Assembly (NCBI RefSeq): GCF_030296775.1
Contig: NZ_AP027742.1
Location: 2,480,001 to 2,544,000, forward strand
Reading direction: 5' to 3'
Origin: Claveliimonas bilis
Lineage (GTDB): Bacteria; Bacillota; Clostridia; Lachnospirales; Lachnospiraceae
DNA length: 64,000 nt
Shown: positions 40,808 through 56,855 of the stretch, one piece after another
How positions within the stretch are numbered: position 1 is the stretch's first letter
How the letters are laid out: every line of letters starts with the position of its first letter
The notes under the pieces: generated by a model
What the model saw: the letters and a program-made list of their open reading frames with translations, nothing else
What the model was told of the DNA's origin: nothing
Database searches by the model: none
Made by a program: the position numbers and the translations under genes

Positions 40808-41008
40808 ATGATAAACTATTCTCCATTATGGGAAACCATGCGCCAACGGGATGTCTCCACCTATACACTGATTCATAAGTATGGTATCAATCCCCGGACG
40901 ATCAATAATTTAAAACATAATAAGTCCATTACTATGTTTACACTGGAAAGGCTTTGTGAGATTTTGAATTGCGAACCGAATGATATAATAAGATTTGAAA
41001 AGAAATAA
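40808..41008 (+). CDS. XRE/Cro-type HTH regulator, 66 aa
   Basis: A small DNA-binding protein: SPLWETMRQRDVSTYTLIHKYGINPRTINNLKHNKSI followed by MFTLERLCEILNCEPNDII, the five-helix Cro/C1 fold in its short form. It would bind its own region or the divergent gene at 40700. The ribosome site is weak (GTGAGCAGAA). A clear terminator follows. It could be the switch for the neighbouring operons, but no operator is certain. Confidence 0.88.
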   Translation: MINYSPLWETMRQRDVSTYTLIHKYGINPRTINNLKHNKSITMFTLERLCEILNCEPNDIIRFEKK

Positions 41009-41040
41009 AGCTACTGGAAAATTACGCTCCAATAGCTTTT
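41009..41040 (+). terminator. Terminator of the XRE gene
   Basis: AGCTACTGGA and TCCAATAGCT pair with one mismatch, followed by four T residues. About 150 bases on, another hairpin (TAGCAGC/GCTGCTA, 41195-41230) faces the end of the RecD-like gene on the other strand. Confidence 0.75.
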
Positions 41041-41236: not shown

Positions 41237-44200
41237 TTACTTATGATTTTGTATTATCTCCATTGCCACCGTAGACAAATCTTTTCCTTCATATGTTTTC
41301 AATAGTTTCCCCGGGAAATTTTTCTCATACCATTTTTCTTTCTTCTCCCAATGCGCCCGATACCCTGGAAGATCTAAGCGTCCAATATGCTCCCAATAAT
41401 ATGTTTCTCCCTTAAATTTAACTGTAAAATCAGGCAGATACATTGTGCCGTCCTTAGCGTAAAGCGGTTCTTCATATACAAAAGGAACCTCTTCCGACAC
41501 CAGCATATTTGCAATGATTACCTCGGATTTTGATCGTACAAAATACTGCGACAAAGTATCCAACTTCTTTTCTTCCTTATACCAGTCGCCGCTGTACAAT
41601 AATTCATCAGGTAATGGTTTGAATTCAAACACTGAAGAATTGATCTTCCTCACAGCAGACTTTTCAACATGGCTCATTGTAGTCAATGTGCTGATATCTT
41701 GCTGAAGGAATACTGTTACATGACGCTGAGCTCTGGTCAGAGCTGTGTAGAGCAACTCCATCGTCAACAAATGGCTCTCACGTTTAGGAATCACAATATA
41801 AACATAATCAAATTCAGACCCCTGCGATTTATGAACACTGATAGCATATGCAAGTTCAAGGTTATCGGTCACACTCTGATCAGGTATCCAATACCCTTTC
41901 TCATCCTTACCTAAGAACTTACCATAGTTATAGCTATAGTTTAGCCTAGTTTTCCCGGAGAACTTGCATTGAAAATGCTGGATATTGGTCATCCATGAGA
42001 TTTTCTTTGCTTCATAGGCCATTGGAGAAACAGTCGCTATTTCTCCGTTATATACTTCCTGCCTTCCCGGCTTACGCGTACTCCAGTCATAAACATATGC
42101 TTTATCAGAAGAGGGTCTGTTTCGGATTTGGATGACTTTATCATACAATCCAATACCATCAACAGAAAGCCGTCTACTCCAATAACCATTAAAGGTGCTC
42201 TGCATAAAAGTATTGATAGACATGGTGCCATAGAACTCTCCCCTATATGGAGAAATAATCTGGAACCGTTCCGGCGCATCTTTTATTGCTTCAGTCCAAA
42301 GATCGTGAAGTTCTCTTTCAGTCTCAGCTCTTTTGCCGGTCAGCGCCTGCATATCAGTAACAAGCCGATCCTTCAATAATTTTTCAAGATCTTCTTGCTC
42401 CTGCCAGAAATAAACGCCTAAATCCTTGTCTACATCATCATTCCCATGTTCAAGAACTTTTGTAAAGATGGCTTCCTTTTCCAGCTTATGACATATTGCA
42501 GCATCTGTATCATCTCCAGCAGTCTGTTTTTCCTGAATAAAGACATTGGCCAAATCCAGAATGCCCGTACCATTTCCTTCAGCTGTATTTACCAGTTGCC
42601 TGATATTCTCCGTAAGTACACCGACGCTGTCAACATATTCATCACTATTCTTTAACCACTCAATAACATCTGCAAAAACCTTCCCCCTTCCAATAGGCGG
42701 AAGCTGATTCGGATCTCCGACTAAGATAAGTCTCTGTACGCTGTTCCAGTTTATTGCCCTTACAAGAGTTGCGAACAAATTCAAATCTATCATAGAGCAT
42801 TCATCAAGGATAAGCGTATTAACGTCCTGGCTTTTTTTCCCTCCAGATCTCTTCATCGTCATATTCTTATTCATCCATCCATTCTTAGCTAGGAACGAAT
42901 GGATTGTTGATGATGGCTTGCCGGTCTGAACCTTAATTCTCTCAGCAGCTTTACCTGTCGGTGCCATAAGTAGAAAGCTTGTTCCGGCACCATGCACTCT
43001 TTCAATGTTATCAAGAATTGCTTTGATTACAGTTGTCTTTCCTGTACCTGCCGCACCAGATAAGATGCAGATAGGCTTCCTAAATATTTGCATACACACT
43101 TCGGCCTGTCTGTCCAGAATAAACTCATACTTTTCCGCTGTTTCTTCCTTATCAAGCAACTTGGAGCTTTCGTTCTTCAGGTTTTTCTTAAACCTCTCAG
43201 ATGAGATTGGAATCTTAAGTTCAATATCTGTTCGATCAACCAATGCTCTAAATACATCCTCGACAGTTCTCTCGTCCTCATAAACACTCCGAATATAAAG
43301 ATAGAGATTTTTATCCTCATCATGTCTCATGAAGAGGCCACCGCTCAGAATATTCTTCTCAACATTAAAATTCTTCAGAGAATAGACATATCTCTTCCAT
43401 TCAGGCATTCTATCCAACCTTGCATTGATTGACTTTAATAGTACTTCGGCTTTACCAAAAGAATGAGCCGGAATCCTATTTAATTCATCAACACAAAGAG
43501 CACGCAAACGTTCCGTAGATCCTACATCAATGATTTCTTCCAGACCATACTCAGGTGACGTAATAATTCCATTATCGATTTTATAAAACGGAATTATATC
43601 ATCAGAATCCTCTCCCATATACTGTTCAAAGATGATATAAGGGTTCTCAATAAGCTCGCTAACAGATACAGTAATTGATACATCCTCACGATTCTCTGAA
43701 ATTATTCCTTTTACCTGCCTAGCAGTCAGATCAAATCTGGGAAGTAAATGAAGTAGAAGTTCTTTTTCCTCGTCATCCTTCATCTGAAACTGGCGGCGTA
43801 CTATCTTCAGATCTTTGTCACTATACTCTATCCCAGCAATGGTATTGGAGTCACCGTTCAACAGATCTTCCAACTGCTTATAAAAATTTTTCCTTCCAGC
43901 ATCATTTGTGATATCAAGAAACGGCTTTATCAGTTCAGGCAACTGTAAAGCTTCAAGAACTGATCCCATACCTGGGAACGGCCCTCTGGCTTTCCAAAGT
44001 TCGTTCAGAACAGAACTAAGCCATTCCTTTCTCTTGTTCCAATCTTCGGTGTCATCACCAATTTCAATCAGAACATCTATGATCTCCAACATCTGGTGAA
44101 TGACTTCAATAGCGTCGTCATTCGTTACTTCACGGCTGCCATACTTAAATGGCGTTCTATTGAGCGGTTTAATTGCAAGACGCTCCGATAACTCATCGTC

Positions 44201-44878
44201 ATGTACATACTTCCAATAAGGAATGCAGAAGCCTTCTTCAGGATACATGGATGTTACAGGCTTCTGCCAAGCAAAACCTCCGCCATATTTTCGCTTAATA
44301 TCCTCTGTCGTATTCTCATAGAAATGAAAGCTATCAATCTTTTTCAGTCTTGAAACGCCTACTATAACATAGTTCTCCTCTTCACCTTCTGAAAAGGGAT
44401 TACTATATCCTGCGTAATAGAAAACAAGAGACTTACCTTCATCAAATTGCTCGAAATATTCTTTGGCATTGTTAAAGCGCTTGTTATAATCGTAAGTCTG
44501 TGTACTCCCCGCTTCAGGTGATACGTCTTTTTTGTACATAGCTTCATAGCACCATGTACATGCTGTAGCCGGTGGAAGCGTTAAAGTGACGGGATCCGCA
44601 TTGCCATCCCCCCACCAATCCGGAGGATCCACACGAGTCTGCACAGTTTCCTTTCCAAATGCATTGATGCTTAAGCCGCACGCTATTTGGCATGGATATT
44701 TACCAGCAGATTCACCGCAATGTTTCTTTTCTAATTCAAGATCCCTCTTTGTTGCAATTAAATCTCCTGGGTATGAGTGCGCCCCCACGCAATATGGATT
44801 ATTGCATGGGTTTTCACATATATGTCCATTCCAGCCTTTATCGTGCCAGGCTAGCCTTAAGCTCATGTGCATCGTCAT
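41237..44878 (-). CDS. Large RecD-like helicase with C-terminal nuclease-like domain
   Basis: A 1213-residue protein. Residues 1-90 hold a cysteine cluster (CENPCNNPYC, then single Cys up to ACTWCYE) that may bind zinc. A superfamily 1 helicase core of RecD/TraA type begins near 600: Walker A SGAAGTGKTTV, APTGKAAERI, Walker B LILDECSMID, VGDPNQLPPIG, and SVHKSQGSEFDYVYIV with TALTRAQRHVTVF at the end. Residues 1110-1170 show SEVIIANML, YLPDFTV and YYWEHIGR, the E-D-ExH spacing of a PD-(D/E)XK nuclease. GGGAGGTGGC precedes the ATG. It is the last gene of the six-gene operon, 22 bases after res. I infer DNA unwinding plus cutting in defence. Confidence 0.82.
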   Translation of the reverse strand: MTMHMSLRLAWHDKGWNGHICENPCNNPYCVGAHSYPGDLIATKRDLELEKKHCGESAGKYPCQIACGLSINAFGKETVQTRVDPPDWWGDGNADPVTLTLPPATACTWCYEAMYKKDVSPEAGSTQTYDYNKRFNNAKEYFEQFDEGKSLVFYYAGYSNPFSEGEEENYVIVGVSRLKKIDSFHFYENTTEDIKRKYGGGFAWQKPVTSMYPEEGFCIPYWKYVHDDELSERLAIKPLNRTPFKYGSREVTNDDAIEVIHQMLEIIDVLIEIGDDTEDWNKRKEWLSSVLNELWKARGPFPGMGSVLEALQLPELIKPFLDITNDAGRKNFYKQLEDLLNGDSNTIAGIEYSDKDLKIVRRQFQMKDDEEKELLLHLLPRFDLTARQVKGIISENREDVSITVSVSELIENPYIIFEQYMGEDSDDIIPFYKIDNGIITSPEYGLEEIIDVGSTERLRALCVDELNRIPAHSFGKAEVLLKSINARLDRMPEWKRYVYSLKNFNVEKNILSGGLFMRHDEDKNLYLYIRSVYEDERTVEDVFRALVDRTDIELKIPISSERFKKNLKNESSKLLDKEETAEKYEFILDRQAEVCMQIFRKPICILSGAAGTGKTTVIKAILDNIERVHGAGTSFLLMAPTGKAAERIKVQTGKPSSTIHSFLAKNGWMNKNMTMKRSGGKKSQDVNTLILDECSMIDLNLFATLVRAINWNSVQRLILVGDPNQLPPIGRGKVFADVIEWLKNSDEYVDSVGVLTENIRQLVNTAEGNGTGILDLANVFIQEKQTAGDDTDAAICHKLEKEAIFTKVLEHGNDDVDKDLGVYFWQEQEDLEKLLKDRLVTDMQALTGKRAETERELHDLWTEAIKDAPERFQIISPYRGEFYGTMSINTFMQSTFNGYWSRRLSVDGIGLYDKVIQIRNRPSSDKAYVYDWSTRKPGRQEVYNGEIATVSPMAYEAKKISWMTNIQHFQCKFSGKTRLNYSYNYGKFLGKDEKGYWIPDQSVTDNLELAYAISVHKSQGSEFDYVYIVIPKRESHLLTMELLYTALTRAQRHVTVFLQQDISTLTTMSHVEKSAVRKINSSVFEFKPLPDELLYSGDWYKEEKKLDTLSQYFVRSKSEVIIANMLVSEEVPFVYEEPLYAKDGTMYLPDFTVKFKGETYYWEHIGRLDLPGYRAHWEKKEKWYEKNFPGKLLKTYEGKDLSTVAMEIIQNHK

Positions 44879-44900
44879 AAGCCACCTCCCTAACCTAAAT

Positions 44901-47900
44901 CTATTTCATTACCTTCTCCATCAGTGACGTATAGCTGTCCACGACATCATAGACAACATTACCATTGGATATGGATTTAAAGTGCTCTCTTGCACAGTGA
45001 ATCTTCGATTCCTCAATCAGTCTCAGCTGCATGGAATTCATAGATCCCTTCGTTTCAGCAACAAAGTAAATATGTTTCATGCTGCCCTCATGAAAAGCAA
45101 TTGCCCAGTCCGGATTATAGTGTCCAACAGGAGTTGAAATATAAAATCCCTTTGGTAGCTTTACATATACGGCAACATCCATATTAGTATCCAGATCTGT
45201 AGCAAAGTCTCGTTCGTTGGTTGAGTCATATACAATATGATCATACAGGTGCTTCTGTGCCTTCATGGCATTCACACCCAGTTTTCCTTTGATAGACGGA
45301 TCGGTAAAGATATCCGTTCCATACCGTTCATCAAGAACATTATAAGTAATATGCTCAATGATTGCCGTAGCTTTCTGATCATTAATCAACTGAGCGGCTT
45401 TTGTAATAAATTCCTCCGGATTATCCTTGAACTGATCAAACACAAACGGTTGTATACCCTGAAGAATTGTAATAATTGCCTTACGCGTCAGCCCTGTTTC
45501 GTCTACCAGTTTTCCGATTAGATCATATTTCACATTAGGATTGGCAGCAACACTTACTCTATAGTTTCCGGATTCTTCCTTCACAAACGAGGCTCCTGCA
45601 ACCAGGTCTTCTTTTGATTTAATGGTGTCCATTACACCAGTCTCGACTTTAAAATAAATCTTCGCAACACGGAGTTTGGAATCCAGACACGCAATTGACT
45701 TCTTTATGAGCTCATCCGTATCGAAATCCACTACATAAACAGACTTTGCGTTGATCTTTGACCACAGTGCCTTAAATTCCTTACTATTAAGTTTTTCATC
45801 ATCTACCTGAAGCTCCACGTTGTTACTGCGGGCATTCTCCGGCAACATAGCCTTACTGTCATAAATAGAATCTATAATTCCAATTACATCCACAGAAAAA
45901 TCCTTTGCTTCTTCAGCAATCTTTATCTCACCATTAGCTTTATCTTCATAATATTTATCTGTAAGCTCTCCAATCTTATTAATATAACCATTTACGATCA
46001 AATCAAAGTGAATGGCAGATGCAACATCTCTTGTAATAACAAATTCATTACCTTTATCATCCTTAACGACATGATTAATAAAAAGCTCCTGTGTAACCTT
46101 TTTAGGCCTGTCGGCTACTGCTTCAGCCATTTCTGTCTGTAAGCCCTTAACAAAGGAATCATAGCTCTCACTTGCTATGACAGTCAGAACATTTACATTG
46201 TGAACATCATTTCCAAGAGCATTGATATCCATACGTTCACCATACTGGTTAACACACAAACGAAGTCCACGACCAATCTCCTGACGTTTACGAACATCAC
46301 TATTGCTTTGCTTCAATGTACAGATCTGAAATACATTCGGATTGTCCCAACCTTCACGCAAAGCGGAGTGTGAAAAGATGAATCTTACTGGAGACTTTTT
46401 CGGGTCTCTTTCCAACAAAAGCTCCTTATTCTTCATAATCAGCTCATATGCACTAACATCGTCAGAAGTAGTCTCTTTTCTACCAACCTTTGAATTGATC
46501 ATCTTTCCTTTGCCATCCACAGAAAAGTATCCTGCATGAGTTTTTTCCACTGGAATTGCTTTCAGATACTGTAGATAATCATCTTCGCCTAATATCAGCT
46601 GCCAATTGTTTAGAATATCTTCGTATTCCTCTTCAAACATCGTCGCATACTTACCGTTCATAGGGTAATTGGCAGCATCATACTTACGATAATTTTCAAC
46701 CTCATCAATAAAAAATAAAGACAATACTTTGATTCCCTTATAAAACAGCTGACGCTCCCTCTGCAAATGAGAAAGAATCGTCTCCCTAATCTGAATTCTG
46801 CGGAGCTGATCTTCGTCTACAGCGCCGACCACATCTCCGGCATAAATCTTAATTCCGTTGATGAATTCGACAAAATCATCACGCCCGTCTATATGGCTGA
46901 CAACAAATCCATTCTTATATTCTTCAAGCCCGTTTGAATAATTATAAAGATTATCTCCTTCCTTAACTATTTTGCTCTTTTTCTTCGCTTGACCGCTGGC
47001 CATCTTCATTTCAAACTGGAGTGTGGCAGTCGGATCACCTTTTGAAAGATTGATGCTTTCAAGATAAAGATAACTGTCCGTAGCGGTGCTGCCGGTCTCA
47101 GAAATACCTTTAACTACAATCTTCTTAACCAGACGCTTGTTATATGCCTCCAAAGCATCCAGACGATAAACCATGTTATAGACGCTGTCGCTCTTATGAG
47201 TAGCTGAATACCTAAGTGTAAGCATTGGATTAAACTGCTTCAGATTTTTCTTGGTCTGCTTACCTTCTACCGACTGAGGCTCATCTATGATCATAATCGG
47301 ATTTGTCTTTGCAATGATATCAATCGGTCTACGTGAGCGAAATTCATCCAACTTCATGTATATTCTTCTGGCATCTTTACCTTTCGCATTGAATGCCTGA
47401 GAATTGATGATCATTACATTGATGGAGCCGTCCGATGCAAAACGGTCAATCTCCGCCAACTGTTTAGAGTTATAGATAAAGAAACGGATCTTTTTTCCAT
47501 ACTCTTCCGCAAAGTGCTCCTGTGTCATCTCAAATGACTTATACACGCCCTCACGAATCGCTATGCTCGGAACAACGATGATGAACTTACTCCATCCGTA
47601 TGCTCTGTTAAGTTCATACATCGTCTTTATATATGTATATGTTTTTCCGACACCCGTCTCCATTTCGATGGTGAGATTAAAACCCTCACTACGACCTTCC
47701 AGTTTTTTTGACGGCGTAATCTGATTAGCGCGCTGTATTTTCTGCAGATTATCCAAAATCAATTGATCGTTCAGTTCCGGAACAATCTTCTGATTGCTCC
47801 ATCCTGTAAAGTCAATGTCATCCGTCAGGCTTTGTTGATAGTTTATTCCACGATCCATCATATAAGTTGGAGTCAGATATGGTTGCCCTGTAAAGACTTC

Positions 47901-47957
47901 AACAACAGCCCTTGCTGCATCCGCTTGAAATTTTTGATGTTTATATTGTATCCTCAT
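44901..47957 (-). CDS. Type III restriction endonuclease, Res subunit
   Basis: A 1018-residue protein with superfamily 2 translocase motifs: EMETGVGKTYTYIKTMYEL near 112 (Walker A GVGKT), IIDEPQSVEG near 224 (a DEAD-like box), SATHKSD, and QEIGRGLRLCV near 560. The C-terminal nuclease has HYNPDWAIAF and FVAETKGS near 945-965, the PD-ExK layout of Res subunits. It would need the Mod subunit for DNA recognition and cut when two unmodified sites meet. It overlaps the preceding small gene by 4 bases (ATGA). Confidence 0.93.
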   Translation of the reverse strand: MRIQYKHQKFQADAARAVVEVFTGQPYLTPTYMMDRGINYQQSLTDDIDFTGWSNQKIVPELNDQLILDNLQKIQRANQITPSKKLEGRSEGFNLTIEMETGVGKTYTYIKTMYELNRAYGWSKFIIVVPSIAIREGVYKSFEMTQEHFAEEYGKKIRFFIYNSKQLAEIDRFASDGSINVMIINSQAFNAKGKDARRIYMKLDEFRSRRPIDIIAKTNPIMIIDEPQSVEGKQTKKNLKQFNPMLTLRYSATHKSDSVYNMVYRLDALEAYNKRLVKKIVVKGISETGSTATDSYLYLESINLSKGDPTATLQFEMKMASGQAKKKSKIVKEGDNLYNYSNGLEEYKNGFVVSHIDGRDDFVEFINGIKIYAGDVVGAVDEDQLRRIQIRETILSHLQRERQLFYKGIKVLSLFFIDEVENYRKYDAANYPMNGKYATMFEEEYEDILNNWQLILGEDDYLQYLKAIPVEKTHAGYFSVDGKGKMINSKVGRKETTSDDVSAYELIMKNKELLLERDPKKSPVRFIFSHSALREGWDNPNVFQICTLKQSNSDVRKRQEIGRGLRLCVNQYGERMDINALGNDVHNVNVLTVIASESYDSFVKGLQTEMAEAVADRPKKVTQELFINHVVKDDKGNEFVITRDVASAIHFDLIVNGYINKIGELTDKYYEDKANGEIKIAEEAKDFSVDVIGIIDSIYDSKAMLPENARSNNVELQVDDEKLNSKEFKALWSKINAKSVYVVDFDTDELIKKSIACLDSKLRVAKIYFKVETGVMDTIKSKEDLVAGASFVKEESGNYRVSVAANPNVKYDLIGKLVDETGLTRKAIITILQGIQPFVFDQFKDNPEEFITKAAQLINDQKATAIIEHITYNVLDERYGTDIFTDPSIKGKLGVNAMKAQKHLYDHIVYDSTNERDFATDLDTNMDVAVYVKLPKGFYISTPVGHYNPDWAIAFHEGSMKHIYFVAETKGSMNSMQLRLIEESKIHCAREHFKSISNGNVVYDVVDSYTSLMEKVMK

Positions 47958-48268
47958 TGGTCACCCTCCTCATTCAACTGAAATCCAGATAGTGATCCCT
48001 TGTAATCTCTAGGTACTTTCAGCACCCAATAATAATGCTTATTCTTCAATGTTTCCTTCAGCATTTTTTGGACACGCCCAGTTTGAATAGAATATTGTGA
48101 CAAATTAACAATAAAACCTTTCTCAGTTCTTTCCATAATCGGGGTAGAATAATGCATAAGTTGATTTCCGTGTATAGAAAGATTACCTGGAGCAGTTTTT
48201 GACCCCGCTCTTCCCGAGGTCTCACCTGCAATGAACATATCTATAATTGTTTGAAAATTCAAATTCAT
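47954..48268 (-). CDS. Unknown 104-aa protein within the restriction operon
   Basis: I do not recognise a domain. It opens MNLNFQTIIDMFIAGETSGRAG and has a central NLSIHGNQLMHYSTPIMER, then VQKMLKETLKNKHYYWV and LKVPRDYKGS. No membrane segment or cysteine is visible. GGAGGGCATC precedes the ATG, and it overlaps res by 4 bases, so it is surely translated with the system. Being placed exactly between Mod and Res, it could be an assembly factor, an inhibitor or a phage-sensing subunit. Confidence 0.8.
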   Translation of the reverse strand: MNLNFQTIIDMFIAGETSGRAGSKTAPGNLSIHGNQLMHYSTPIMERTEKGFIVNLSQYSIQTGRVQKMLKETLKNKHYYWVLKVPRDYKGSLSGFQLNEEGDQ

Positions 48269-48278
48269 GATGCCCTCC

Positions 48279-50159
48279 TTACATTATTTTTACACTCGTA
48301 TCCGGAGAAAGCATTTTGAAAATCTCTCCAACGTTAATCTTTGCTGGACTACCACTAAAGCTACTGTCACGAAATACTGCTTTAAGGGGCTGCTTCTTTG
48401 CTATCGCACGAACCACTGAGTCTGGAATGTTTTCATTAAAACAAGCGATTAAATCCCCTTCATTATATAAATACACAGAGCAACCTTCTATTATCTCTGT
48501 ATTAAACGGCAGCGATAATGGAAGTCCCCAATCAAGAAGACACCCAAATAACAAATCCAGATCATTTCTATCAGATTTTATATTTGATTCCAATAGTGAC
48601 AACATGTTTTGCTGATACTCCCCTGCGGAATAGTAAACATCATTCATATTACCGTCATCCAATTTCAACACACGGAAACCAACATCTAAACCTTGCGACA
48701 ACAATCCACCTTCCTCGAGAATAGCTTTACCAGCTCTTCTTATACGTTCTTTGCCAAAATCTGCAATGCTTGTATACTCTGAGCCTCTCAAGTCATTTCC
48801 TTCATCAGACTGTACCATGATAAACCTTCTTGACTTTCCATCTTTAAAATTTGCATTAAAAGTTGCATGCGCAGTAGATGACGAACCAGCAAAAAAATCC
48901 ATAACAATATCACCATCTCCGGAAAAGTTTTGAACAAAAAGTTCTAACAGTTTCGTTGGCTTTGGTGTTTGAAACGGCAGATCTCTGGTCTGAACAATTC
49001 CAAATAAAGCCTTTAATTCTTCCTTAGCTTCATTGTTATTTGAAATCTCAATAAAAGAAGGTATCTTTACTTTTCCGCCGCCATCCGATTCATAGAACTT
49101 CTTATACACAGGATATTTGCTTGATTTCGAATCCTTAAATTCAATTCTGCCGTCACGCAGGAGCTGTTCATATGTATCTTTTGCACAAATCCACTGTGTG
49201 GTAACTGTTCCACCATTTGGCAACTCAATTGGGTAAACCAACGTAGGCCTTGGATCAAGATTGGACTTCAACGGTCTAGTATAATAACGTCCTCGCTCCT
49301 CCAAGTACTCATCTTCCAACACAAACTTTCCTTTTTCTTCATCGGGACGCGCCATTGATATTTCTCCCAATGAAACAATTTTTTTAGCATACGCTAGAAT
49401 ATATTCATGATAATCAGCAAATGTTGATGTTCCTTTTCCTCCTGTATATTTCTTTTTCCATACTAAAATGGCAAGCCTGTTCTCTCGTCCAAATACCTCG
49501 TCACATATTTTAATAAGATTCTCAACTTCATTATCATCTATGCTAATGAAGATTGCCCCATCATCCTTAAGCAAGTTACGTGCAAGTAGCAGTCTAGAAT
49601 AAATCATGGAACACCAATCAGAATGAAATCTTCCATTTGTGTCAGTGTTTTTGAATAACTTCTCTCCATTCTCTCCATAAACACCACTTTCCTCGTCGTA
49701 ATCCTTTTTCTTTGTGGTAAAATTATCGTTGTAAATAAAATCTCCACCCGTATTATAAGGTGGATCAATATATATCACCTTCACTGAATTTAGATAACTC
49801 TCTTGTAACAACTTCAGAACTTGAAGATTTTCTCCCTCAATATATAAATTCTCAGTAGTATCCCAGTTTACGCTTTCCTCTGGACATGGACGCAAAGTTT
49901 TACGGATAGGCCTGTTTGCCTCTACAATGGCGCGTTTCTTTCCAACCCAAGTAAATTCATATGCTTCACCACCTTCAAGGACATCCCCAGAAAGCATCTG
50001 GCGAAGCATATCAAAATTTATAACCTTCTTGTATACCTTTTTCTCTGGAGAACTCTTTTCTTCATCCAAAACCTCAGTTATACAGTTAGGGAATAAAGCT
50101 GCAATCTTATTCACATTCTGTTTTGTCATATCAACTGACTCCATTCTCATTTTTTCCAT
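48279..50159 (-). CDS. Type III DNA-adenine methyltransferase, Mod subunit
   Basis: A beta-class N6-adenine methyltransferase of 626 residues. The catalytic DPPYNT is near 132, ahead of the SAM motif DFFAGSSSTAHA near 420, the order expected for type III Mod. A variable middle (about 210-390) would be the target-recognition domain. It marks host sites and gives specificity to Res. GGAGG lies nine bases before the ATG, which is inside the DUF4391 gene (29-base overlap). Confidence 0.93.
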   Translation of the reverse strand: MEKMRMESVDMTKQNVNKIAALFPNCITEVLDEEKSSPEKKVYKKVINFDMLRQMLSGDVLEGGEAYEFTWVGKKRAIVEANRPIRKTLRPCPEESVNWDTTENLYIEGENLQVLKLLQESYLNSVKVIYIDPPYNTGGDFIYNDNFTTKKKDYDEESGVYGENGEKLFKNTDTNGRFHSDWCSMIYSRLLLARNLLKDDGAIFISIDDNEVENLIKICDEVFGRENRLAILVWKKKYTGGKGTSTFADYHEYILAYAKKIVSLGEISMARPDEEKGKFVLEDEYLEERGRYYTRPLKSNLDPRPTLVYPIELPNGGTVTTQWICAKDTYEQLLRDGRIEFKDSKSSKYPVYKKFYESDGGGKVKIPSFIEISNNNEAKEELKALFGIVQTRDLPFQTPKPTKLLELFVQNFSGDGDIVMDFFAGSSSTAHATFNANFKDGKSRRFIMVQSDEGNDLRGSEYTSIADFGKERIRRAGKAILEEGGLLSQGLDVGFRVLKLDDGNMNDVYYSAGEYQQNMLSLLESNIKSDRNDLDLLFGCLLDWGLPLSLPFNTEIIEGCSVYLYNEGDLIACFNENIPDSVVRAIAKKQPLKAVFRDSSFSGSPAKINVGEIFKMLSPDTSVKIM

Positions 50160-50811
50160 TTTTGAGATCCTCCAGTTCTTTTTTTAGTTTCTTCAGCTCT
50201 GTATTAAGTCGTACCTGTTTATTTAATTGCTTTTCCTTCCTGACCTTCAGCTGTAGAGCAGTAATCTGTTTCTGCAATTCCTGCCGTCTGTTATCTCGAT
50301 CAACAGAGTCTTTAAGACTTTCTTGTTTTTTAGTTTGTAACACATCTCCTGCAATTTGCCGGACAAAGTTTTCATATACTTTATCGATGCTCAGACCATC
50401 TATTTTTAACGGTAAATTAGTTTCTTCCAACCAATCCGTATGATAATAGGTTTCCACCTTAAAAGCGTTATTGCCGGATCCCACAGCTTCCTTATACGCT
50501 GTCCACGCCTGATATTTTCCATCATATTCCAATAAAAATATGATGTGATACGGGATCTCTTTATCAATCTGACGAAGAATTGCTTTATCCAGCTTTGGTT
50601 CTGCCAGCTTGACTTCAAATATCTCAATCTCCGTTACCATCTCGCCTGCTGCCAGATTCATTGTAGTAGCAGCGATTTTATTTCTCCAAAAAATCACTTT
50701 TATCTGATCTATGAACACTCTTTTTAACGCAGGCGGCACCGTCAGGTTCTCATAAAATTTCTGCTTTGGTATTCGCCGGTTAAACTCCGTGCTTTTTGGC
50801 AATCCAATCAC
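50131..50811 (-). CDS. DUF4391-family protein with coiled-coil tail
   Basis: A 226-residue protein. The N-terminal 150 residues (MIGLPKSTEFNRRIPKQKFYENL, then QIKVIFWRNKIAATTMNL) match the DUF4391 type that is commonly found next to SNF2 helicases and Mod genes. IPYHIIFLLEYDGKYQAWTAYKE is also typical. The last 70 residues are a long charged coiled coil. Its biochemical role is unknown; it may bridge helicase and methyltransferase. Overlap with mod and a 9-base gap after the helicase tie it to the system. Confidence 0.85.
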   Translation of the reverse strand: MIGLPKSTEFNRRIPKQKFYENLTVPPALKRVFIDQIKVIFWRNKIAATTMNLAAGEMVTEIEIFEVKLAEPKLDKAILRQIDKEIPYHIIFLLEYDGKYQAWTAYKEAVGSGNNAFKVETYYHTDWLEETNLPLKIDGLSIDKVYENFVRQIAGDVLQTKKQESLKDSVDRDNRRQELQKQITALQLKVRKEKQLNKQVRLNTELKKLKKELEDLKNGKNENGVS

Positions 50812-50820
50812 TTAAACACC

Positions 50821-53800
50821 TCATTTCACAACTAGGAAGCAAATCAGCTCAAAATCATCCAGTCCGTTAATCTCTGACATCAGTGCTGAAGTGCCTCCTG
50901 CGGAGAACAGACTGTCAATATCGCTCTCTTCCTTAACATCAATAATGGAATTGATGGCATCGGAAAGAAGCTGTGATACTTCCTTCATATTTCGTCCATC
51001 ATCAGTTTCTTTATTAAACTTCCCACAAAGCTCCAATACAGGCTCGGATTTACCACGGCAAAGCAACCGAACTGTATCAAGAAGTTTCTTCGGATTCAGA
51101 TAATCACAGACAACTTCCCCATCAATTCCAATGTAAACCATATAGAACGGATGAATCCGGTTCTGATTATCAATATTAATATTGTTGTTGATGTTCCGTA
51201 GAACGAAGATCACGCCTTCCGGATTCTCTTCCGTGGCAGGTACCACAGCATGAAGCCCTTTCGGCTTCTTTGCCAGATCTTCATGCGTCTTTATGTATTC
51301 CAGCAAATCCAGGCGGAATTCATTCAGCCCCAGATCCATGATGGAAATACCTGTGGACATATCCTCGATATCGACCACTTCATCCTGCAACCGCTTCAAC
51401 TGTTGCTTTCTGTATTCCAAATCCCCCTTCTCTTCCGGATTGATTAGATCATCATCTCCTGTAGAAGTCATGACAGAAATCTTCATCCTTGTCTCAACAC
51501 GAGACTTCAGATTAATATAGTCATCCAGTGTCATATCCGGCCAAAAGTTCACCAGCTGTATGTACTGGTTCCGGCTGCCGATACGATCGATACGACCAAA
51601 CCTCTGAATAATACGGACCGGATTCCAATGGATATCATAGTTCACCAAATAATCGCAATCCTGCAGGTTCTGACCTTCAGAAATACAATCAGTAGCAATA
51701 AGAACATCAATCTCCTCTGTGCTTCCTGGCATCAGAACATCCCTGCTCTTGGATATCGGAGAGAAACAAGTCAACACATTATTCAGTGTTGCCTTCAACC
51801 CTTTAATGGTTGTCCTACCATCAATCGTTCCAGTGATGACCGCTGTATCCAGGCCATAATTATTCTTCATGTAGCTGGCAACTTGATCATAAAGATACTC
51901 CGCTGTATCAGAAAAAGCAGAGAAGATTAGCACCTTCTTGTTCCCTTCATTGATAGGATTAGCCATCTTTTCGTCCAGAAGTTTGAAAAGAGTCTGAAGC
52001 TTTAGGTCATGTTCCGGAGTAATGTCAGCGACCATAAGCGTAAGAAGCTCCAAAGTATCCGCATCATATCGAAGCTCTGCTCTCCATGTCTTATAGTCCA
52101 TATCTGCCAGATCTATTTTTACCTTCTTACCAACCGTGAAGAAATCCGTGTTTCCATCTTCCATATCGAAATCATTATCATTGGCTTCGTACATGTCCAG
52201 TTCCGCTTTGCCATACTTTTCAAACTGATTAATAGCATCAATTGTATCCTGGATAAGATCACGTATTCTTGCAAGTGTCAAGCTAAATGAGTAAACGGAG
52301 CTTTCGAGTCTCTTCAACAGGTTGATGCTCATTAAACGCCGGATACCTTGCTCACGACCTTTCTGAGTAAGGTTATTGCCCTTGTTATGAGTCAAATCTA
52401 CATACTTCGACATCTTACTTGGAAAAATATAATGCGATGGTGTATATATGCATAGTGTAAGCTGCATCAGCTGTTCATAGATTTCATTGTAATTGATGGC
52501 ATCATTGAGATCTGTAAGGCCCGGTCTCTTTGATATTGGCTTTAACCGCTCCGGAAATTTTCCAATCTCTTCTGTGTTATAATACTTCTCTATATGTCTT
52601 CTGGATCGTGCAATTGTTACGCTGTCCAAAACCTCAAAGAAATCAAAATCCAGTGTTCGCAGCAGTGCATCCGTCGTTCTTGTTTCAGGCTCAAGTTTGC
52701 TCCATGCATTAAAAGCTTTTTGAGCCTGACGGAATATCTCTTCAATAGGTTTCTTTGTATCCAACTGTTCATTAATAAACTCTGAGTTTCCCTCATAGGC
52801 AAGTGCCAACTGATTCTTAAGATCTGTAAATCTGTTATTTACTGGTGTAGCAGAAAGCATTAGCACCTTTGTTTTAACGCCGGCACGGATGACCTTATCC
52901 ATCAATTTCACATACCGGTTCTCCTGTGTATTGGCATGAGTCCCGGCTCCATTGCGGAAATTATGCGATTCGTCAATCACGACCAGGTCATAGTTGCCCC
53001 AGTTAAGACGATCCAAATCAATTCCATTTGAAACACCACCGCTACGTGATAAATCCGTATGAAACAATACAGCATAGTTCAACCGATCAGAAGCAATCGG
53101 ATTGTTGACATAGTTATCTTTATATGTGTTCCAGTTCTCGCAAAGCTTTTTGGGACAGAGTACAAGAACTGTCTTATTTCTATTTTCGTAGTATTTGATG
53201 ACTGCCAGCGCCGTAAAGGTCTTACCAAGACCAACGCTGTCTGCCAGTATGCAGCCATTATATTTTTCCAACTTATTGATGATGGCAAGTACCGCATCAC
53301 GCTGGAAGTCATATAGCATATTCCAAATCTTACTTTGCTTAAAGCCCGTTGCATCATTAGGCAGAACATCTTCGGAAATATCATCCAGGAACTCACTGAA
53401 GACATTATACAGCGTCATAAAATAGATAAACTCTGGAGAATTTTCATTGTATGCCGTGCTGATATTGGAGATGATCGTCTCCGTTACATCCTGTATCTTT
53501 TCTTTATCATTCCACAGAGTTTCAAATAGCTGCATATACTGAGTAGAAAATGGAGCCTCCATACTGTTTACCATATTATAGCTGTTATTCCCGCGCTCAC
53601 ATCCAATATCGACTGTCGTAAAACCATTAATTGGCATATACGCTGTCTGCTCCACCGGTGAATCTACCGTCATGAATCCACCCATATTTTCACCGGTAAC
53701 ATTGGACTTAAATGTAGCCTTCTTCCGAATCCAATCGGCGCACTCTCTAGCAATAGCTTTCTGCGTCATTTCATTACGCAGCTTTATCTCGAATTCAGTT

Positions 53801-54057
53801 CCATAAAGACTATTCTCACGGCTGAGCCTCGGAATATAGAACTCTCTCTTCTGCTTCTCAGCCTTCTCTTTTATGAATGTCGGAGACGTAAAAATAAAGC
53901 GGAATTCATCCACCTTTTCCAACTGACTCTTCAGTTCTTTGTATGCATACATAGAGAAGCAGGCCGCTGCTATGGAGACTTTGCTTCTTGGTTTTATTTT
54001 CTCTTTTAGGTCATCACGTACCACTTTGGTGATGTTATCAAATATCTCCACAGGCAC
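50821..54057 (-). CDS. SNF2-type helicase with PLD-like N-terminal region
   Basis: A 1078-residue superfamily 2 protein. Residues 1-170 resemble the phospholipase-D-like fold of defence helicases (VSIAAACFSMYAYKEL, FRFIFTSP), but I see no HxK catalytic motif. The helicase has ADSVGLGKTFTALAVIKYY near 275, VVIDESHNFRNG near 360, LMLSATPVNN, and QRFGRIDRIGSRNQYIQLVNFWP near 820 (motif VI). The annotated start is GTG at 54057, very close to GGAGG; another in-frame GTG at 54051 has better spacing. It is the first gene of the operon and probably a DNA translocase. Confidence 0.88.
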   Translation of the reverse strand: MPVEIFDNITKVVRDDLKEKIKPRSKVSIAAACFSMYAYKELKSQLEKVDEFRFIFTSPTFIKEKAEKQKREFYIPRLSRENSLYGTEFEIKLRNEMTQKAIARECADWIRKKATFKSNVTGENMGGFMTVDSPVEQTAYMPINGFTTVDIGCERGNNSYNMVNSMEAPFSTQYMQLFETLWNDKEKIQDVTETIISNISTAYNENSPEFIYFMTLYNVFSEFLDDISEDVLPNDATGFKQSKIWNMLYDFQRDAVLAIINKLEKYNGCILADSVGLGKTFTALAVIKYYENRNKTVLVLCPKKLCENWNTYKDNYVNNPIASDRLNYAVLFHTDLSRSGGVSNGIDLDRLNWGNYDLVVIDESHNFRNGAGTHANTQENRYVKLMDKVIRAGVKTKVLMLSATPVNNRFTDLKNQLALAYEGNSEFINEQLDTKKPIEEIFRQAQKAFNAWSKLEPETRTTDALLRTLDFDFFEVLDSVTIARSRRHIEKYYNTEEIGKFPERLKPISKRPGLTDLNDAINYNEIYEQLMQLTLCIYTPSHYIFPSKMSKYVDLTHNKGNNLTQKGREQGIRRLMSINLLKRLESSVYSFSLTLARIRDLIQDTIDAINQFEKYGKAELDMYEANDNDFDMEDGNTDFFTVGKKVKIDLADMDYKTWRAELRYDADTLELLTLMVADITPEHDLKLQTLFKLLDEKMANPINEGNKKVLIFSAFSDTAEYLYDQVASYMKNNYGLDTAVITGTIDGRTTIKGLKATLNNVLTCFSPISKSRDVLMPGSTEEIDVLIATDCISEGQNLQDCDYLVNYDIHWNPVRIIQRFGRIDRIGSRNQYIQLVNFWPDMTLDDYINLKSRVETRMKISVMTSTGDDDLINPEEKGDLEYRKQQLKRLQDEVVDIEDMSTGISIMDLGLNEFRLDLLEYIKTHEDLAKKPKGLHAVVPATEENPEGVIFVLRNINNNINIDNQNRIHPFYMVYIGIDGEVVCDYLNPKKLLDTVRLLCRGKSEPVLELCGKFNKETDDGRNMKEVSQLLSDAINSIIDVKEESDIDSLFSAGGTSALMSEINGLDDFELICFLVVK

Positions 54058-54106: not shown

Positions 54107-54298
54107 TTACCTCAGCTCGTCCCATTGTTTCAGTTCAATCAAAACTACATTTACATCTTTTCGTTTCCCGTAACGGAATATCAGAAAATCCAATTGTTTG
54201 GATGTCTGTGGGATATTATACTTGATAGCACTCCCTGCATCAGATGGAATTCCCTGATAATTCAGGACTTTATACATATATACCATCCAAAGTATCAC
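54107..54298 (-). pseudogene. Fragment of a DUF2075-type gene
   Basis: A 63-residue frame contains YKVLNYQGIPSDAGSAIKYNIPQTSKQLDFLIF and ends in VVLIELKQWDEL. This looks like an internal piece from the N-terminal region of DUF2075 proteins (nuclease-like domain ahead of an ATPase). Both the usual N-terminal part and the long C-terminal ATPase are missing. It lies directly upstream of the defence operon and marks the edge of an older, lost defence gene. Confidence 0.6.
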
Positions 54299-54687
54299 AC
54301 AGCGGTAATACTTAATCTCACTTTAGCGCAATAATATATGCAATTTATTTACGAATTAACTTTTCTATAATTATATATTATTTTCGCTTTTTCTTCAATT
54401 TTTCTCTCGAGCTTTAATATAAATTAAATAGCTCTAAAAACAAATAAATCCCAAGTAATCATAACACTATCGCACTTTTATAAATGCTAATCTAAAAGTG
54501 AGCCCCAGAGGCTCACTCTATAGTTGACGAACATACACTTTTTAACACTAATACAAAGTTTGTTGTAAAACATATACAGAACTTGATGCATAAAAGTGCC
54601 ATAGGTGGTTAACCTATGGCATGTAAAATATTTTCTCATTCATACAAGAAACTTTATAGGGCATTATGTCTACAGGAGAAAATTTAA
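54299..54687. other. AT-rich gap with two hairpins
   Basis: No gene seen. GTGAGCC/GGCTCAC (near 54498-54517) and TGCCATAGGT/ACCTATGGCA (near 54597-54622) are perfect hairpins that could end transcription from either side. Confidence 0.55.
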
Positions 54688-54885
54688 ATGATACAGTATA
54701 AAACCAAATGTATGTATGGCTATTCGCTACTCGGCGAACGTCCCCCTCAATTAGATATTAATACAGAATATGTAATCATCGGTCAATCAAAGTTCTTCTC
54801 ACATTGCGTTATTATACAGCGAGCAGATGGGAAAGCCTTTCTTGGAGAAAAACGTTGGATTGTTCCTGAAAATAGCATATACTAA
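54688..54885 (+). CDS. Hypothetical 65-aa protein
   Basis: A short frame on the plus strand with CAGGAG before the ATG. Predicted protein MIQYKTKCMYGYSLLGERPP continues into a beta-rich segment (EYVIIGQSKFFSHCVIIQRADGKAFLGEKRWIVPE). I do not recognise it. Its end overlaps the stop of the GHKL gene by 4 bases in convergent orientation. The composition looks protein-like, but it could be chance; a small regulator or immunity factor is possible. Confidence 0.5.
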   Translation: MIQYKTKCMYGYSLLGERPPQLDINTEYVIIGQSKFFSHCVIIQRADGKAFLGEKRWIVPENSIY

Positions 54886-56855
54886 TCAATCTCCAATTCA
54901 TTGATAAGATCGCTCAATGTTGAAAGATTCTTATTTTGTTCAAGAAAATCGCTGTATAAATTTTGCGCATTTTTTAAAAGTTCATCATAATACATAATCC
55001 GACAATGATATGCTTTTAACGCTTCTTTAGTTGCCTGATATACTTCTTCATCATATTTTTCCCCATCTAGATGACGTCCCAAAAGTACTATAATTTCAAA
55101 AGGTTCTGGCTGATCTAAAGTCGACATTACTTTTTTGGTAGCAGAGAAATATTTATACACTTGGGCAGTTATTTCTTGTGATTTAACCATACGGTTGCCT
55201 TTTTTTAATTCAATAATTAAATGCTCATTAGAGGCTTTTCTATATCGAATATCAAGGCGGGCATCTAATTCCTCTTGGGATAGCCCCGCATCTATAGTTT
55301 TAAATTGAGTTTTAAATGCTTGTTCTACTATTGGAAGTTCTGTTCCTCTATCCCATGAGGGATCCAGCAACCATAAGTTTTTGCTTAAATGCTCCTGTAT
55401 TACTTTTTCAAGACTTCCATCAGACACAACATCTTGCATTTTTTGAATTACAGCCAACCGTTCTTGAACAATTTGATAATACATTGTTGCTTCAATATTA
55501 TCAAGACGTCCTGCGACTTCTATAAATGCCGCAATATTTTCAGCATCAATTTTTTCAAGTTGACTTAATTCATTTTTTAATTTGAAGGATTCAAACGCTA
55601 ATACGCCATGCTTAAAAAGTTCTTTCTTTTCATCTTTCTCAACAGTTAATTGATTAATTTTACCAAACAATTTTTTTGCAGATTTTTTATCGTCACCTTT
55701 TAGCTCGTTGTACCAGTCACTAACAACCACATATTTACATGCCTCGTCAACCCCACTGGTGCTTCTGATTTCTTCCCAATCATTTCGGACAGATGATAGC
55801 GATTTTTTAACAAATTCCTTTAAAACTATATAACGCTCGTCATCTTCAAAAAAATCTTGTCTACTACTTGTGGTTATGTCCGCTTCATCATCTAAATCTA
55901 AGAAATCCGCAGATAATTCGCCAAAAACATATTTAGAATAGAGTGCAGTCGTACCTATTTCAGAAAAAATATCTTCTTTTGCCATTTTACCTCGTACCAT
56001 GATCACTATGCGATTCAAATTTTCATCATCATCGAGCTCTTTGGGTTCTGAACAAGTAGCAATCCATCCTGTAATACGATAAGAATTTTCTCCAACAGTG
56101 ACTGTAGACGGAAGTTCTTTTATCAGTTTAATTTTTTCTGATTTAGTTTGAGATTTTAAATCTTCCCTATAATCATCAGCTCCATTCTCTGGTAGAAACA
56201 TCCAAACACATTGAGCTTTAGATAGATAGTTTCTGTCAGATATACTAATTTCTTCGCCATTTATCGATACTTTAAAATTGTTTTTTGTACCAATAACAGC
56301 AAATCTACGAGCTAAACGTTGTCGTAAATGAGTCGCCAATGTAGCAGTTCTTTTTTTCTTTAGATCACTTAAAACAATTTTAGTGCCGTTTCCATTAAAT
56401 TCTATATCATTTGCAGTTAATTCAACAGGATAATAGGTATCATTGTTTTTAATGGCTTCTTTTAAAGAGTTGGTATCAATCTTAAAACCATTAAGTTCTC
56501 CACCCTTTTTCGAATAAACTTCTACAATATTGGCAATAGAAAATAATGATAATTTCCCAATGCCTTTTCGTCCCATTACTGCTCTATGAAATACTGGAGA
56601 TTCTCCACTTTCACTACGTTTCTGATAGCCTACAGTCAAATATTTATTATTTATATCCGAAAGATTCATTCCATTTCCATTATCTGTAATGGTAATATTA
56701 TTTCCATCAATTTGGATATTGACTTCTGTAGCATCTGCATCCCAAGCATTTGCTACTACTTCTGATAACACAGCCGATGTATTACTGTAAAGATTCAACC
56801 CCAAATGATTTAATACTTGTAAGTTTATAGACATTTGAAATTTTGGTACACTCAT
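54882..56855 (-). CDS. GHKL ATPase with C-terminal nuclease domain (MORC/MutL-like restriction protein)
   Basis: A 657-residue protein. The Bergerat-fold ATPase is at the N-terminus: EVVANAWDADATEV, ITDNGNGMNLSDI and GRKGIGKLSLFSIA. The middle (about 200-480) resembles the second S5-like domain and a helical linker. The C-terminal part has ARLDIRYRKASNEHLIIELKKG, a D...ExK core of a PD-(D/E)XK nuclease. Such ATPase-nucleases next to C5 methyltransferases are described as MutL/MORC-type restriction systems by Iyer and co-workers. It overlaps the methyltransferase gene by 4 bases, so it is likely the restricting partner. Confidence 0.85.
   Translation of the reverse strand: MSVPKFQMSINLQVLNHLGLNLYSNTSAVLSEVVANAWDADATEVNIQIDGNNITITDNGNGMNLSDINNKYLTVGYQKRSESGESPVFHRAVMGRKGIGKLSLFSIANIVEVYSKKGGELNGFKIDTNSLKEAIKNNDTYYPVELTANDIEFNGNGTKIVLSDLKKKRTATLATHLRQRLARRFAVIGTKNNFKVSINGEEISISDRNYLSKAQCVWMFLPENGADDYREDLKSQTKSEKIKLIKELPSTVTVGENSYRITGWIATCSEPKELDDDENLNRIVIMVRGKMAKEDIFSEIGTTALYSKYVFGELSADFLDLDDEADITTSSRQDFFEDDERYIVLKEFVKKSLSSVRNDWEEIRSTSGVDEACKYVVVSDWYNELKGDDKKSAKKLFGKINQLTVEKDEKKELFKHGVLAFESFKLKNELSQLEKIDAENIAAFIEVAGRLDNIEATMYYQIVQERLAVIQKMQDVVSDGSLEKVIQEHLSKNLWLLDPSWDRGTELPIVEQAFKTQFKTIDAGLSQEELDARLDIRYRKASNEHLIIELKKGNRMVKSQEITAQVYKYFSATKKVMSTLDQPEPFEIIVLLGRHLDGEKYDEEVYQATKEALKAYHCRIMYYDELLKNAQNLYSDFLEQNKNLSTLSDLINELEID

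Follow-up and report, generated by a model that had tools for sequence, protein, structure and literature searches.

Considering that textbook type III restriction-modification (R-M) systems consist of two genes, the six-gene operon present in a 64,000-nucleotide stretch of Claveliimonas bilis DNA (named the "window") raises the question of whether its products constitute one composite defence system, as proposed in an initial annotation, or a smaller recurrent unit carrying exchangeable genes. The six open reading frames (ORFs), whose products were assigned to families with Pfam, PADLOC and NCBIfam, are all open and all located on the minus strand (Table 1). Their junctions, in order from the SNF2 gene to the RecD-like gene, are a gap of 9, an overlap of 29, a gap of 10, an overlap of 4 and a gap of 22 bases, and the ORF coordinates thus bear out the one-strand layout with gaps and overlaps of 4 to 29 bases described initially. 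A ribosome-binding-like purine stretch is clear before five of the six starts and weak before that of the DUF4391 gene. The total of terminator-like hairpins obtained by consensus scan is near chance (11 matches, versus a shuffled mean of 7.8, sd 3.2); the two flanking the operon lie outside the unit, and the remaining minus-strand matches are inside coding sequence.

Table 1 Features of the operon and its flanks, with positions numbered along the window.
Feature	Position	Strand	Place in operon	Family or basis
SNF2-family helicase/translocase, 1078 aa	50821..54057	-	core gene 1	PADLOC C3a139; Pfam, PADLOC
DUF4391 protein, 226 aa	50131..50811	-	core gene 2	PF14335, E 2e-58
Mod, type III N6/N4 DNA methyltransferase, 626 aa	48279..50159	-	core gene 3	Pfam, PADLOC
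104-aa orphan protein	47954..48268	-	cargo, Mod/Res slot	no family match
Res, type III restriction subunit, 1018 aa, SF2 helicase and PD-(D/E)XK endonuclease	44901..47957	-	core gene 4	PF19778, PF04851
RecD-like SF1 helicase, 1213 aa, Cys/His-rich N-terminus, putative PD-(D/E)XK-like C-terminus	41237..44878	-	cargo behind Res	PADLOC PDC-S68
Terminator-like hairpin behind the operon	41007..41039	-		consensus scan only
Terminator-like hairpin upstream, between type II R-M genes and the operon	54597..54621	-		consensus scan only

Type III enzymes are characterised by cleavage that consumes ATP and takes place between two unmethylated sites in inverse orientation, combined with methylation of one strand. 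Mod of the window matches PF01555 (E 3.8e-31) and the PADLOC model MTase_III (E 3.8e-201), and conserves the DPPY and AdoMet-binding motifs of a type III N6/N4 methyltransferase (DPPYNTG, residues 132-138, and DFFAGS, residues 421-426). Res matches the EcoP15I Res subunit in PDB entry 4zcf (4zcf_C, E 1.6e-69) and contains, next to its SF2 helicase, a C-terminal PD-(D/E)XK domain in which D950, E968 and K970 are conserved. As mod and res are on the same strand, 321 bases apart and separated by the 104-aa gene alone, they belong to one operon. Like EcoP1I and EcoP15I, the locus has mod and res side by side in an operon and the motifs that define the type; it differs from them by two extra recurrent upstream genes (encoding SNF2 and DUF4391) and by variable cargo inside the operon. 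Its initial description as type III-like, with additional helicases, is supported. The target-recognition region of Mod probably corresponds to about residues 224-395, which have 12-27% identity to 28 relatives; the sequences show that this middle region has been exchanged.

The survey of DUF4391 neighbourhoods with Mod/Res returned a recurrent four-gene core and no fixed six-gene set. The order SNF2-DUF4391-Mod-Res is present in 31 of the 42 stretches examined, these being 40 stretches fetched through DUF4391 (29 with the core), the window and its relative L062; it is also present in all four plasmid stretches opened for their SNF2 match and, among 28 IMG/VR stretches retrieved through SNF2, in 17. 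Because loci were drawn by the presence of DUF4391, SNF2, Res or RecD, such core frequencies do not represent population estimates, and the contig ends of MAGs hide neighbours in survey loci. Counted as complete are three cores with irregular frames, namely L087 (damaged DUF4391 frame), L096 (Mod frame split) and L099 (two ORFs on the opposite strand interrupt Mod). Of 295 genomes of the order of the host, 22 have SNF2 (threshold E 1e-50), 23 have DUF4391 (threshold E 0.001) and 19 have both. On a tree of Res, the presence of SNF2/DUF4391 changes eight times, compared to a mean of 15.4 in shuffled labels, none of 500 shuffles being as low, and the core lineage is present in both Bacillota and Gammaproteobacteria. 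Both SNF2 and DUF4391 recur as companions of this type III lineage. Mod-Res loci lacking both also exist, some with a Res near that of the window (60% in L114 and 58% in L115); the two helpers are therefore dispensable for some members, with which the eight changes on the tree agree. One relative (G283) is mosaic, its SNF2 gene being 99.6% identical in DNA, compared to about 77% for DUF4391, 69% for Mod and 72% for Res. No name for the four-gene core was found in the literature searched, from which subscription papers and bioRxiv were mostly outside scope, and an older description may exist; in the same literature DUF4391 was found in one paper, as a table row.

The SNF2 protein conserves the motifs GLGKT (residues 276-280), DESH (362-365) and QRFGR (818-822), and matches the PADLOC model C3a139, labelled 'HKD+Snf2', at 406.6 bits. 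A fusion of an HKD (PLD-type) nuclease to SNF2 was nonetheless rejected: residues 1-240 of the window protein contain no HxK motif and so lack the catalytic HxK(x)4D, HxKxxxxD is found in the N-terminal domain of none of 34 aligned SNF2 proteins (window included; HxK in two), and no PLD domain is matched in Pfam. For DUF4391, the AlphaFold model (pLDDT 88.1) consists of an alpha/beta domain followed by a C-terminal helical hairpin. Since no PDB or BFVD entry reached E 0.001 or better in a Foldseek search with this model, and VIA-align rows cover almost solely the hairpin (residues 161-226), a known fold is neither assigned to nor ruled out for this protein. A nuclease assignment through its 'FEVKL' stretch was dropped, the residues not being conserved.

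Three slots of the core hold changing cargo: the DUF4391/Mod junction, the Mod/Res junction and the region behind Res. One or both of the first two slots are filled in 17 of the 31 core loci (15 of 29 without the window and L062), by families that include RhuM, YhcG/DUF1016, Shedu-like, KAP, Schlafen-type and SIR2-like genes and, in L062, PDC-S02. These cargo ORFs are mechanical calls, several without a family, and 19 of the 33 in these two slots were scanned for families, besides the 104-aa gene of the window. The 104-aa protein has no family match in Pfam, PADLOC, NCBIfam or PHROGs, and one weak phage match (E 0.01), on which nothing here relies. Searches of plasmids, of viral contigs and of the genomes of 30 relatives did not return its gene, and among 184 fetched loci the sole occurrence is the window's own copy (L184).

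The RecD-like protein matches the PADLOC model PDC-S68 over its full length (1754.6 bits, residues 1-1211 on model positions 1-1199 of 1202). PDC-S68 is a candidate family, PDC families being described as largely without validation, and this name was not found among the matches listed in the literature searched. The helicase core matches RecD2 and its motifs are kept, whereas the whole protein scores below the cut-offs of both RecD2 (TIGR01448, 252.9 bits versus 500) and the RecBCD subunit RecD (TIGR01447, 192.5 bits versus 310.15). It differs from RecD2 by about 345 N-terminal residues, with invariant Cys/His, that precede the RecD2-like part, and by its PD-(D/E)XK-like C-terminus. An alignment of 11 sequences, that of the window among them, shows no variation in the motor residues, the N-terminal Cys/His or the acidic residues of the C-terminus. 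The putative assignment of a nuclease is based on the invariant E1119, D1150 and E1163 and on the known pattern of PD-(D/E)XK motifs; a sequence-profile search of this C-terminus gave no convincing solved relative (best E 0.53). Of the two separate nuclease-like domains initially announced, that of Res stands, and that of the RecD-like protein is a prediction from motifs. The AlphaFold model of the N-terminus, built with 12 sequences, has a pLDDT of 44.5, and for this reason no fold is claimed for it.

Among the core loci examined, the core followed by a RecD-like gene is found in the window and L062 only; it is missing behind Res in all 39 other complete core loci with at least 3.7 kb of room (28 survey, 2 plasmid and 9 IMG/VR). 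L062 (RecD-like 94% and Res 89% identical to the window) keeps the RecD-like gene at the same place, so that at least two genomes have this combination, and carries two other genes in its slots and no 104-aa gene. Elsewhere, the genes in front of the RecD-like gene are of DrmD-like, Druantia, BREX-like or type ISP systems, or it lies away from defence genes, three copies (L063, L068 and L153) having no recognised system directly in front; it was not found in viral contigs. A search of 391 genomes with the PADLOC model, scoring at most two candidates per genome, was dominated by ordinary RecD2 (of the matches listed, the window alone scored as a true member, with 1754.6 bits, the next best reaching 140.7 bits) and was replaced by a search with residues 1-345, which detected this region in 6 of the 295 genomes of the order. 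L064 and L152 are apparently one Druantia locus from two collections, to be counted once. Eight loci with DrmD-like neighbours may instead be BREX-like, since L155, which bears PglZ, has similar sacsin-type and SNF2 genes (the latter with HEPN_Swt1); of these eight, L059, which is truncated at the contig start, was alone typed by PADLOC and Pfam, the other seven being typed by tblastn match position (L067 also by ORFs).

Judged from gene content, the 104-aa and RecD-like genes appear to be accessory cargo and not fixed components. The explanation considered probable is that the locus represents a mobile type III R-M system of an SNF2/DUF4391-extended lineage, with slots that have received unrelated genes, two accessory genes being present here: the 104-aa gene in the Mod/Res slot and the gene of the PDC-S68 helicase behind Res. 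In EcoP15I-type enzymes, Mod marks short sites of the cell's own DNA by methylation, while Mod-Res, driven by ATP, departs from a site that lacks the mark, slides along the DNA and cuts where two enzymes meet; by analogy, Mod and Mod-Res of the window would do the same. SNF2-DUF4391 may act as an auxiliary motor with its adaptor, helping on difficult DNA, and the RecD-like protein may be a separate backup that unwinds and degrades DNA from ends or single-stranded stretches, which would be made by whichever translocating or cutting system adjoins it. DNA degradation after cutting, suggested by the initial annotation as an extra step, is possible. The close packing of the genes, and the overlap by 4 bases between res and the 104-aa gene, would be compatible with a functional unit as well and, like the retention of the RecD-like gene in L062, speak against the cargo reading.

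A tentative and less probable reading is that SNF2-DUF4391-Mod-Res constitutes a four-component type III subtype and cassette carrier with defined cargo slots, the second motor (SNF2) and the protein without a clear known fold (DUF4391) being working parts, and that PDC-S68 serves quite different translocating systems (type III, type ISP, DrmD-like, BREX-like, Druantia) as a common finishing module, degrading the DNA that they have attacked. It is rather unlikely that the RecD-like and 104-aa proteins are guards (abortive infection) triggered by phage inactivation of the restriction enzyme, like PrrC in EcoprrI, and not helpers in DNA degradation. Embedded genes in R-M operons are taken as backups in two publications (PMC12707154, PMC3710099), and other cargo of the lineage includes families of proposed or known toxins or effectors, e.g. 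RhuM and SIR2-like; however, the retained helicase motifs of the RecD-like protein fit DNA processing at least equally, and three of its copies have no recognised system directly in front. With PrrC/RloC-type genes of type I R-M operons the locus shares an accessory gene inside an R-M operon; the operon here is type III, the protein families are different, and nothing in the locus points to tRNA cleavage or to a response to anti-restriction proteins. That the RecD-like gene is a mere neighbour trapped by island assembly, with no defence role, is improbable: some copies lie away from defence genes and its frequency in the order is low, but many copies are directly behind defence genes, the residues named above are invariant, and PADLOC lists the protein as a candidate. 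A true six-component system with one pathway (recognise, cut, then degrade) is very improbable, since the close spacing of the six genes and the order shared with L062 are set against a 104-aa gene found nowhere else and a RecD-like gene that is absent from the other cores and occurs behind other systems.

The operon was also compared with other known systems, its parts and the principle of embedding being already known. It is not DISARM, which has DrmD/DrmA helicases with DrmB (the SNF2 protein reaches 151.7 against a DrmD cut-off of 610, and no Pfam match to DUF1998 (DrmB) is present in the six proteins), nor BREX, which has PglZ and PglX (no Pfam match to PglZ, Eco57I or N6_Mtase in the six proteins), nor a BREX-related (BR) system, which has a DUF499 ATPase with N6-MTase and helicase-nuclease (no Pfam match to DUF499 or DUF3780 in the six). 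BR systems (PMC12839542) combine an HKD-Swi2/Snf2 helicase with an N6-MTase; in both, a methyltransferase of adenine type adjoins an SNF2-type helicase and auxiliary nucleases are close by, whereas here the methyltransferase is a type III Mod with a Res partner, and the HKD motif is lacking. Genes embedded in defence operons, the PADLOC PDC families, were reportedly found by 'guilt-by-embedding' (preprint of Payne et al., 2024, as cited in later papers); the full-length PDC-S68 match and the PDC-S02 cargo of L062 are shared with these, and PDC-S68 here differs in being last, behind Res, and not between core genes. In line with the initial annotation, the literature searched (most subscription papers and bioRxiv being outside its scope) names no system made up of precisely these six components; the RecD-like protein is already represented in PADLOC.

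The retention of an SNF2 motor and DUF4391 beside Mod/Res in Bacillota and Gammaproteobacteria suggests that the two-gene picture of type III systems misses a helper function. The cargo slots provide a list of candidate accessory defence genes, and a RecD-like helicase recurring behind several kinds of defence operon would indicate a shared downstream step.

As proposed in the initial annotation, six collinear ORFs on the minus strand, specifying an SNF2-type helicase, a DUF4391 protein, Mod, a 104-aa protein, Res and a RecD-like protein, are all present and open in the window, with successive junctions consisting of a gap of 9, an overlap of 29, a gap of 10, an overlap of 4 and a gap of 22 bases. 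A purine-rich stretch precedes the start clearly in five of the six genes and weakly for DUF4391, and the six genes likely form a single transcript. The operon is flanked by terminator-like hairpins, which were called by consensus only and whose total count is close to the shuffled mean. A 63-codon ORF ahead of the SNF2 gene resembles the remnant start of another gene.

Coordinates and family assignments of the operon genes and neighbouring features in the window
Feature	Position	Strand	State or basis	Family assignment
SNF2 gene	50821-54057	-	open ORF	PF00176/PF00271; PADLOC C3a139 'HKD+Snf2', 406.6 bits
DUF4391 gene	50131-50811	-	open ORF	PF14335
Mod gene	48279-50159	-	open ORF	PF01555, MTase_III
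104-aa gene	47954-48268	-	open ORF	no match in Pfam, PADLOC or NCBIfam
Res gene	44901-47957	-	open ORF	PF04851 + PF19778, REase_III
RecD-like gene	41237-44878	-	open ORF	AAA_19/AAA_30/UvrD_C_2; PADLOC PDC-S68, 1754.6 bits, entire model covered
Terminator-like hairpin, operon flank	54621-54597		consensus scan only	
Terminator-like hairpin, operon flank	41039-41007		consensus scan only	
63-codon ORF	54107-54298	-		
Type II R-M pair	54882-58060	-		BbrUII/HgiDII-family restriction enzyme (786 bits, cut-off 550); cytosine methyltransferase
Island, ~25 kb	35332-60531			
Tyrosine integrase	35636-36874		by eye	
16-bp direct repeat	35332 and 60516			
clpB	30802-33405		by eye	

The window Res resembles that of EcoP15I (match to 4zcf_C, E 1.6e-69), and the catalytic motifs of Mod and Res are retained. 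The HKD nuclease implied by the PADLOC label of the SNF2 protein is unsupported for this lineage, since HxK is absent from residues 1-240 of the window protein and missing there in 32 of 34 aligned SNF2 proteins (the window's counted), and HxKxxxxD occurs in none of the 34.

In surveys of the order (295 genomes) and of the class (391 genomes), DUF4391 was detected in 23 and 28 genomes, respectively, the window's own genome being counted in each. From the larger set of matches, 40 DUF4391 stretches, 20 per survey, were examined together with the window and locus L062. SNF2, a DUF4391-type gene, Mod and Res follow one another in this order in 31 of these 42 stretches (including L087, counted although its DUF4391-type gene is damaged). 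Six of the 11 other stretches end at contig limits (L081, L082, L086, L095, L097, L106), and five show different surroundings of DUF4391 (L090, L102, L104, L112 and L089, the last located at a contig start). When recounted with stricter scores, this four-gene core was recovered in 29 of the 40 survey stretches, 17 of 28 stretches from IMG/VR and four of seven plasmid stretches, the remaining three plasmid stretches having been chosen for their RecD-like gene. Across the 295 genomes of the order, SNF2 (E 1e-50) was found in 22, DUF4391 (E 0.001) in 23 and both in 19; SNF2 without DUF4391 was seen in three, being two fragments (G133, G261) and genome G277. On contig C25 of the latter (L133), an SNF2 gene whose product is 66% identical stands ahead of unrelated genes together with a DUF4391-like gene of weak score (14 bits), Mod and Res being absent from that stretch.

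The SNF2 protein was also found on 102 of 72,556 plasmid records (E 1e-60), four of which were examined for this match. Brochothrix and Enterococcus plasmids carry the core without additions, an unnamed 185-aa gene being DUF4391-like by profile score, and Aeromonas and Citrobacter plasmids carry the core plus additional genes, here termed cargo. Contigs of the viral sequence collection IMG/VR (L156-L182) hold the full or partial core; just upstream in L157, L159, L160 and L167 lies a 760-768-aa gene, ATP-binding in appearance.

Cargo, defined as a gene of at least 90 aa in either of two inner slots, DUF4391-Mod or Mod-Res, is present in 17 of the 31 complete loci, or in 15 of 29 once the window and L062 are set aside; 14 loci have no such gene. 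Twenty cargo proteins, 19 from the two inner slots and one from behind Res, were scanned against Pfam at E 0.01, and 11 reached Pfam's own cut-off: RhuM (L076, L085, L100), YhcG/DUF1016 nuclease (L062, L098), Shedu SduA_C and KAP NTPase (both L088), HATPase_c_4 with Schlafen AlbA (L078), DUF4365 (L076), DUF2513 (L077) and, behind Res, SIR2_2 (L076). Four gave sub-cut-off matches only (L075, L079, L087, L099) and five no match (212 aa in L062, 225 aa in L077, L080, 287 aa in L085, L101), and two of four scanned IMG/VR slot proteins matched a reverse transcriptase (L172) and GmrSD (L175). The 104-aa gene is one such slot insert, and an orphan: it was found in none of 30 relative genomes, nor among plasmids or viral contigs, and within 184 fetched loci only in L184, the window's own copy. 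One weak outside match of its protein is to Bacillus phage vB_BcoS-136 (36% over 79 aa, E 0.01).

Considering loci with at least 3.7 kb past Res, the RecD-like gene lies behind a complete core in the window and L062 only, and is absent from the 39 other complete core loci of that extent (28 survey, 2 plasmid, 9 IMG/VR). Exact peptide patterns retrieved 14 RecD-like loci from the genome_contigs collection, of which one, L062, has the core ahead of the gene. A different SNF2 helicase lies a few kb upstream in eight (L059, L060, L061, L066, L067, L069, L070, L071), that of L059 being DrmD-like by PADLOC and followed by a sacsin-type ATPase; Druantia DruE lies two genes upstream in L064; no recognised system stands directly ahead in L068 or in L063, where the available upstream sequence is only 1.7 kb long; and the remaining two, L065 and L072, are fragmentary. 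In L068, an ORF located 2.5 kb upstream has, by eye, the appearance of a DUF262 protein.

A search with RecD-like residues 1-345 was positive in six of the 295 genomes (the window's, G070, G112, G222, G225, G277). The G070 copy has a Druantia setting and is seemingly the same locus as L064, a sacsin-type ATPase lies behind the gene in G112 and G222, and the G225 copy is located away from defence genes, judged by eye. The diverged G277 copy (L155, contig C2) ends a cluster that reads as BREX-like because an Eco57I-type methylase, PglZ, SNF2 and a sacsin-type ATPase are encoded in front; the G222 and G277 copies show only 26-27% identity over their length. Four plasmids also carry the gene: directly after a type ISP enzyme (Paracoccus), behind an SNF2 protein (Hymenobacter), adjoining a type I R-M operon of the opposite strand (Bartonella), and as a 25% identical copy (Vibrio fluvialis). 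Cys 21, 25, 30, 63, 67, 107 and 110, His 12, 19 and 53, the Walker A motif, the DE motif, E1119, D1150 and E1163 are kept in 11 aligned RecD-like sequences, the window's counted.

The locus is mosaic: the relative G283 is 99.6% identical to the window in SNF2 DNA, but about 77% in DUF4391, 69% in Mod and 72% in Res, and holds neither the 104-aa gene nor a RecD-like match. Mod residues 224-395 are 12-27% identical to 28 relatives, as compared to 39-78% for residues 1-223; this region, probably the specificity part, is thus exchanged. The operon is held by an island with a tyrosine integrase, and the two copies of the 16-bp direct repeat TTACTACACCATTTTT may be att sites. GC content is 0.37-0.42 in the six operon genes versus 0.49 in clpB. 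Directly upstream of the operon lies a separate type II R-M pair, whose GC3 (0.21-0.22) is far below that of the operon genes (0.32-0.45).

In EcoP15I, a short asymmetric site is methylated by Mod on a single strand, and ATP starts the sliding of Res, cleavage taking place upon the meeting of two complexes. With the anatomy, motifs and recurrence of the locus established here, SNF2-DUF4391 would serve as a helper motor plus adaptor. The RecD-like protein may work independently, as a helicase-nuclease that attacks DNA at ends or gaps, or else it may be a guard. Published work reports PDC families nominated through 'guilt-by-embedding' (PMC12988326, PMC10855318, PMC12255303), second systems embedded within type I R-M operons (PMC12629846, PMC12255303), embedded backups (PMC3710099, PMC12707154) and BREX with auxiliary effectors (PMC12839542). 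No word starting with RecD occurs in PMC12839542 or in the YprA-helicase preprint PMC12458937, and in the literature searched DUF4391 was met in one paper, as a table entry. In view of this literature on embedded and auxiliary defence genes, the accessory genes belong to an already recognised kind.

Res was found in 49 of the 295 genomes (E 1e-20), and in a converse sample of 20 Res stretches away from any DUF4391 hit, of which eight (L116-L121, L128, L129) were cut by contig ends or too fragmentary and 12 judgeable, neither a window-type SNF2 nor DUF4391 was present. Res of L114 and L115, both without SNF2 and DUF4391, is 60% and 58% identical to the window Res, respectively. Therefore, the helper pair is common without being obligatory. 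On a quick tree of 69 Res proteins (each above 600 bits and 850 aa), the SNF2/DUF4391 label changes 8 times versus a shuffled mean of 15.4, none of 500 shuffles being that low; because the sample was partly picked by this label and a few labelled rows miss one gene call, such clustering is support, not proof. In three of the 12 judgeable stretches (L127, L130, L131), an SNF2 helicase that is different and shorter is encoded upstream of Mod, and these loci suggest that type III genes may have joined SNF2 motors more than once.
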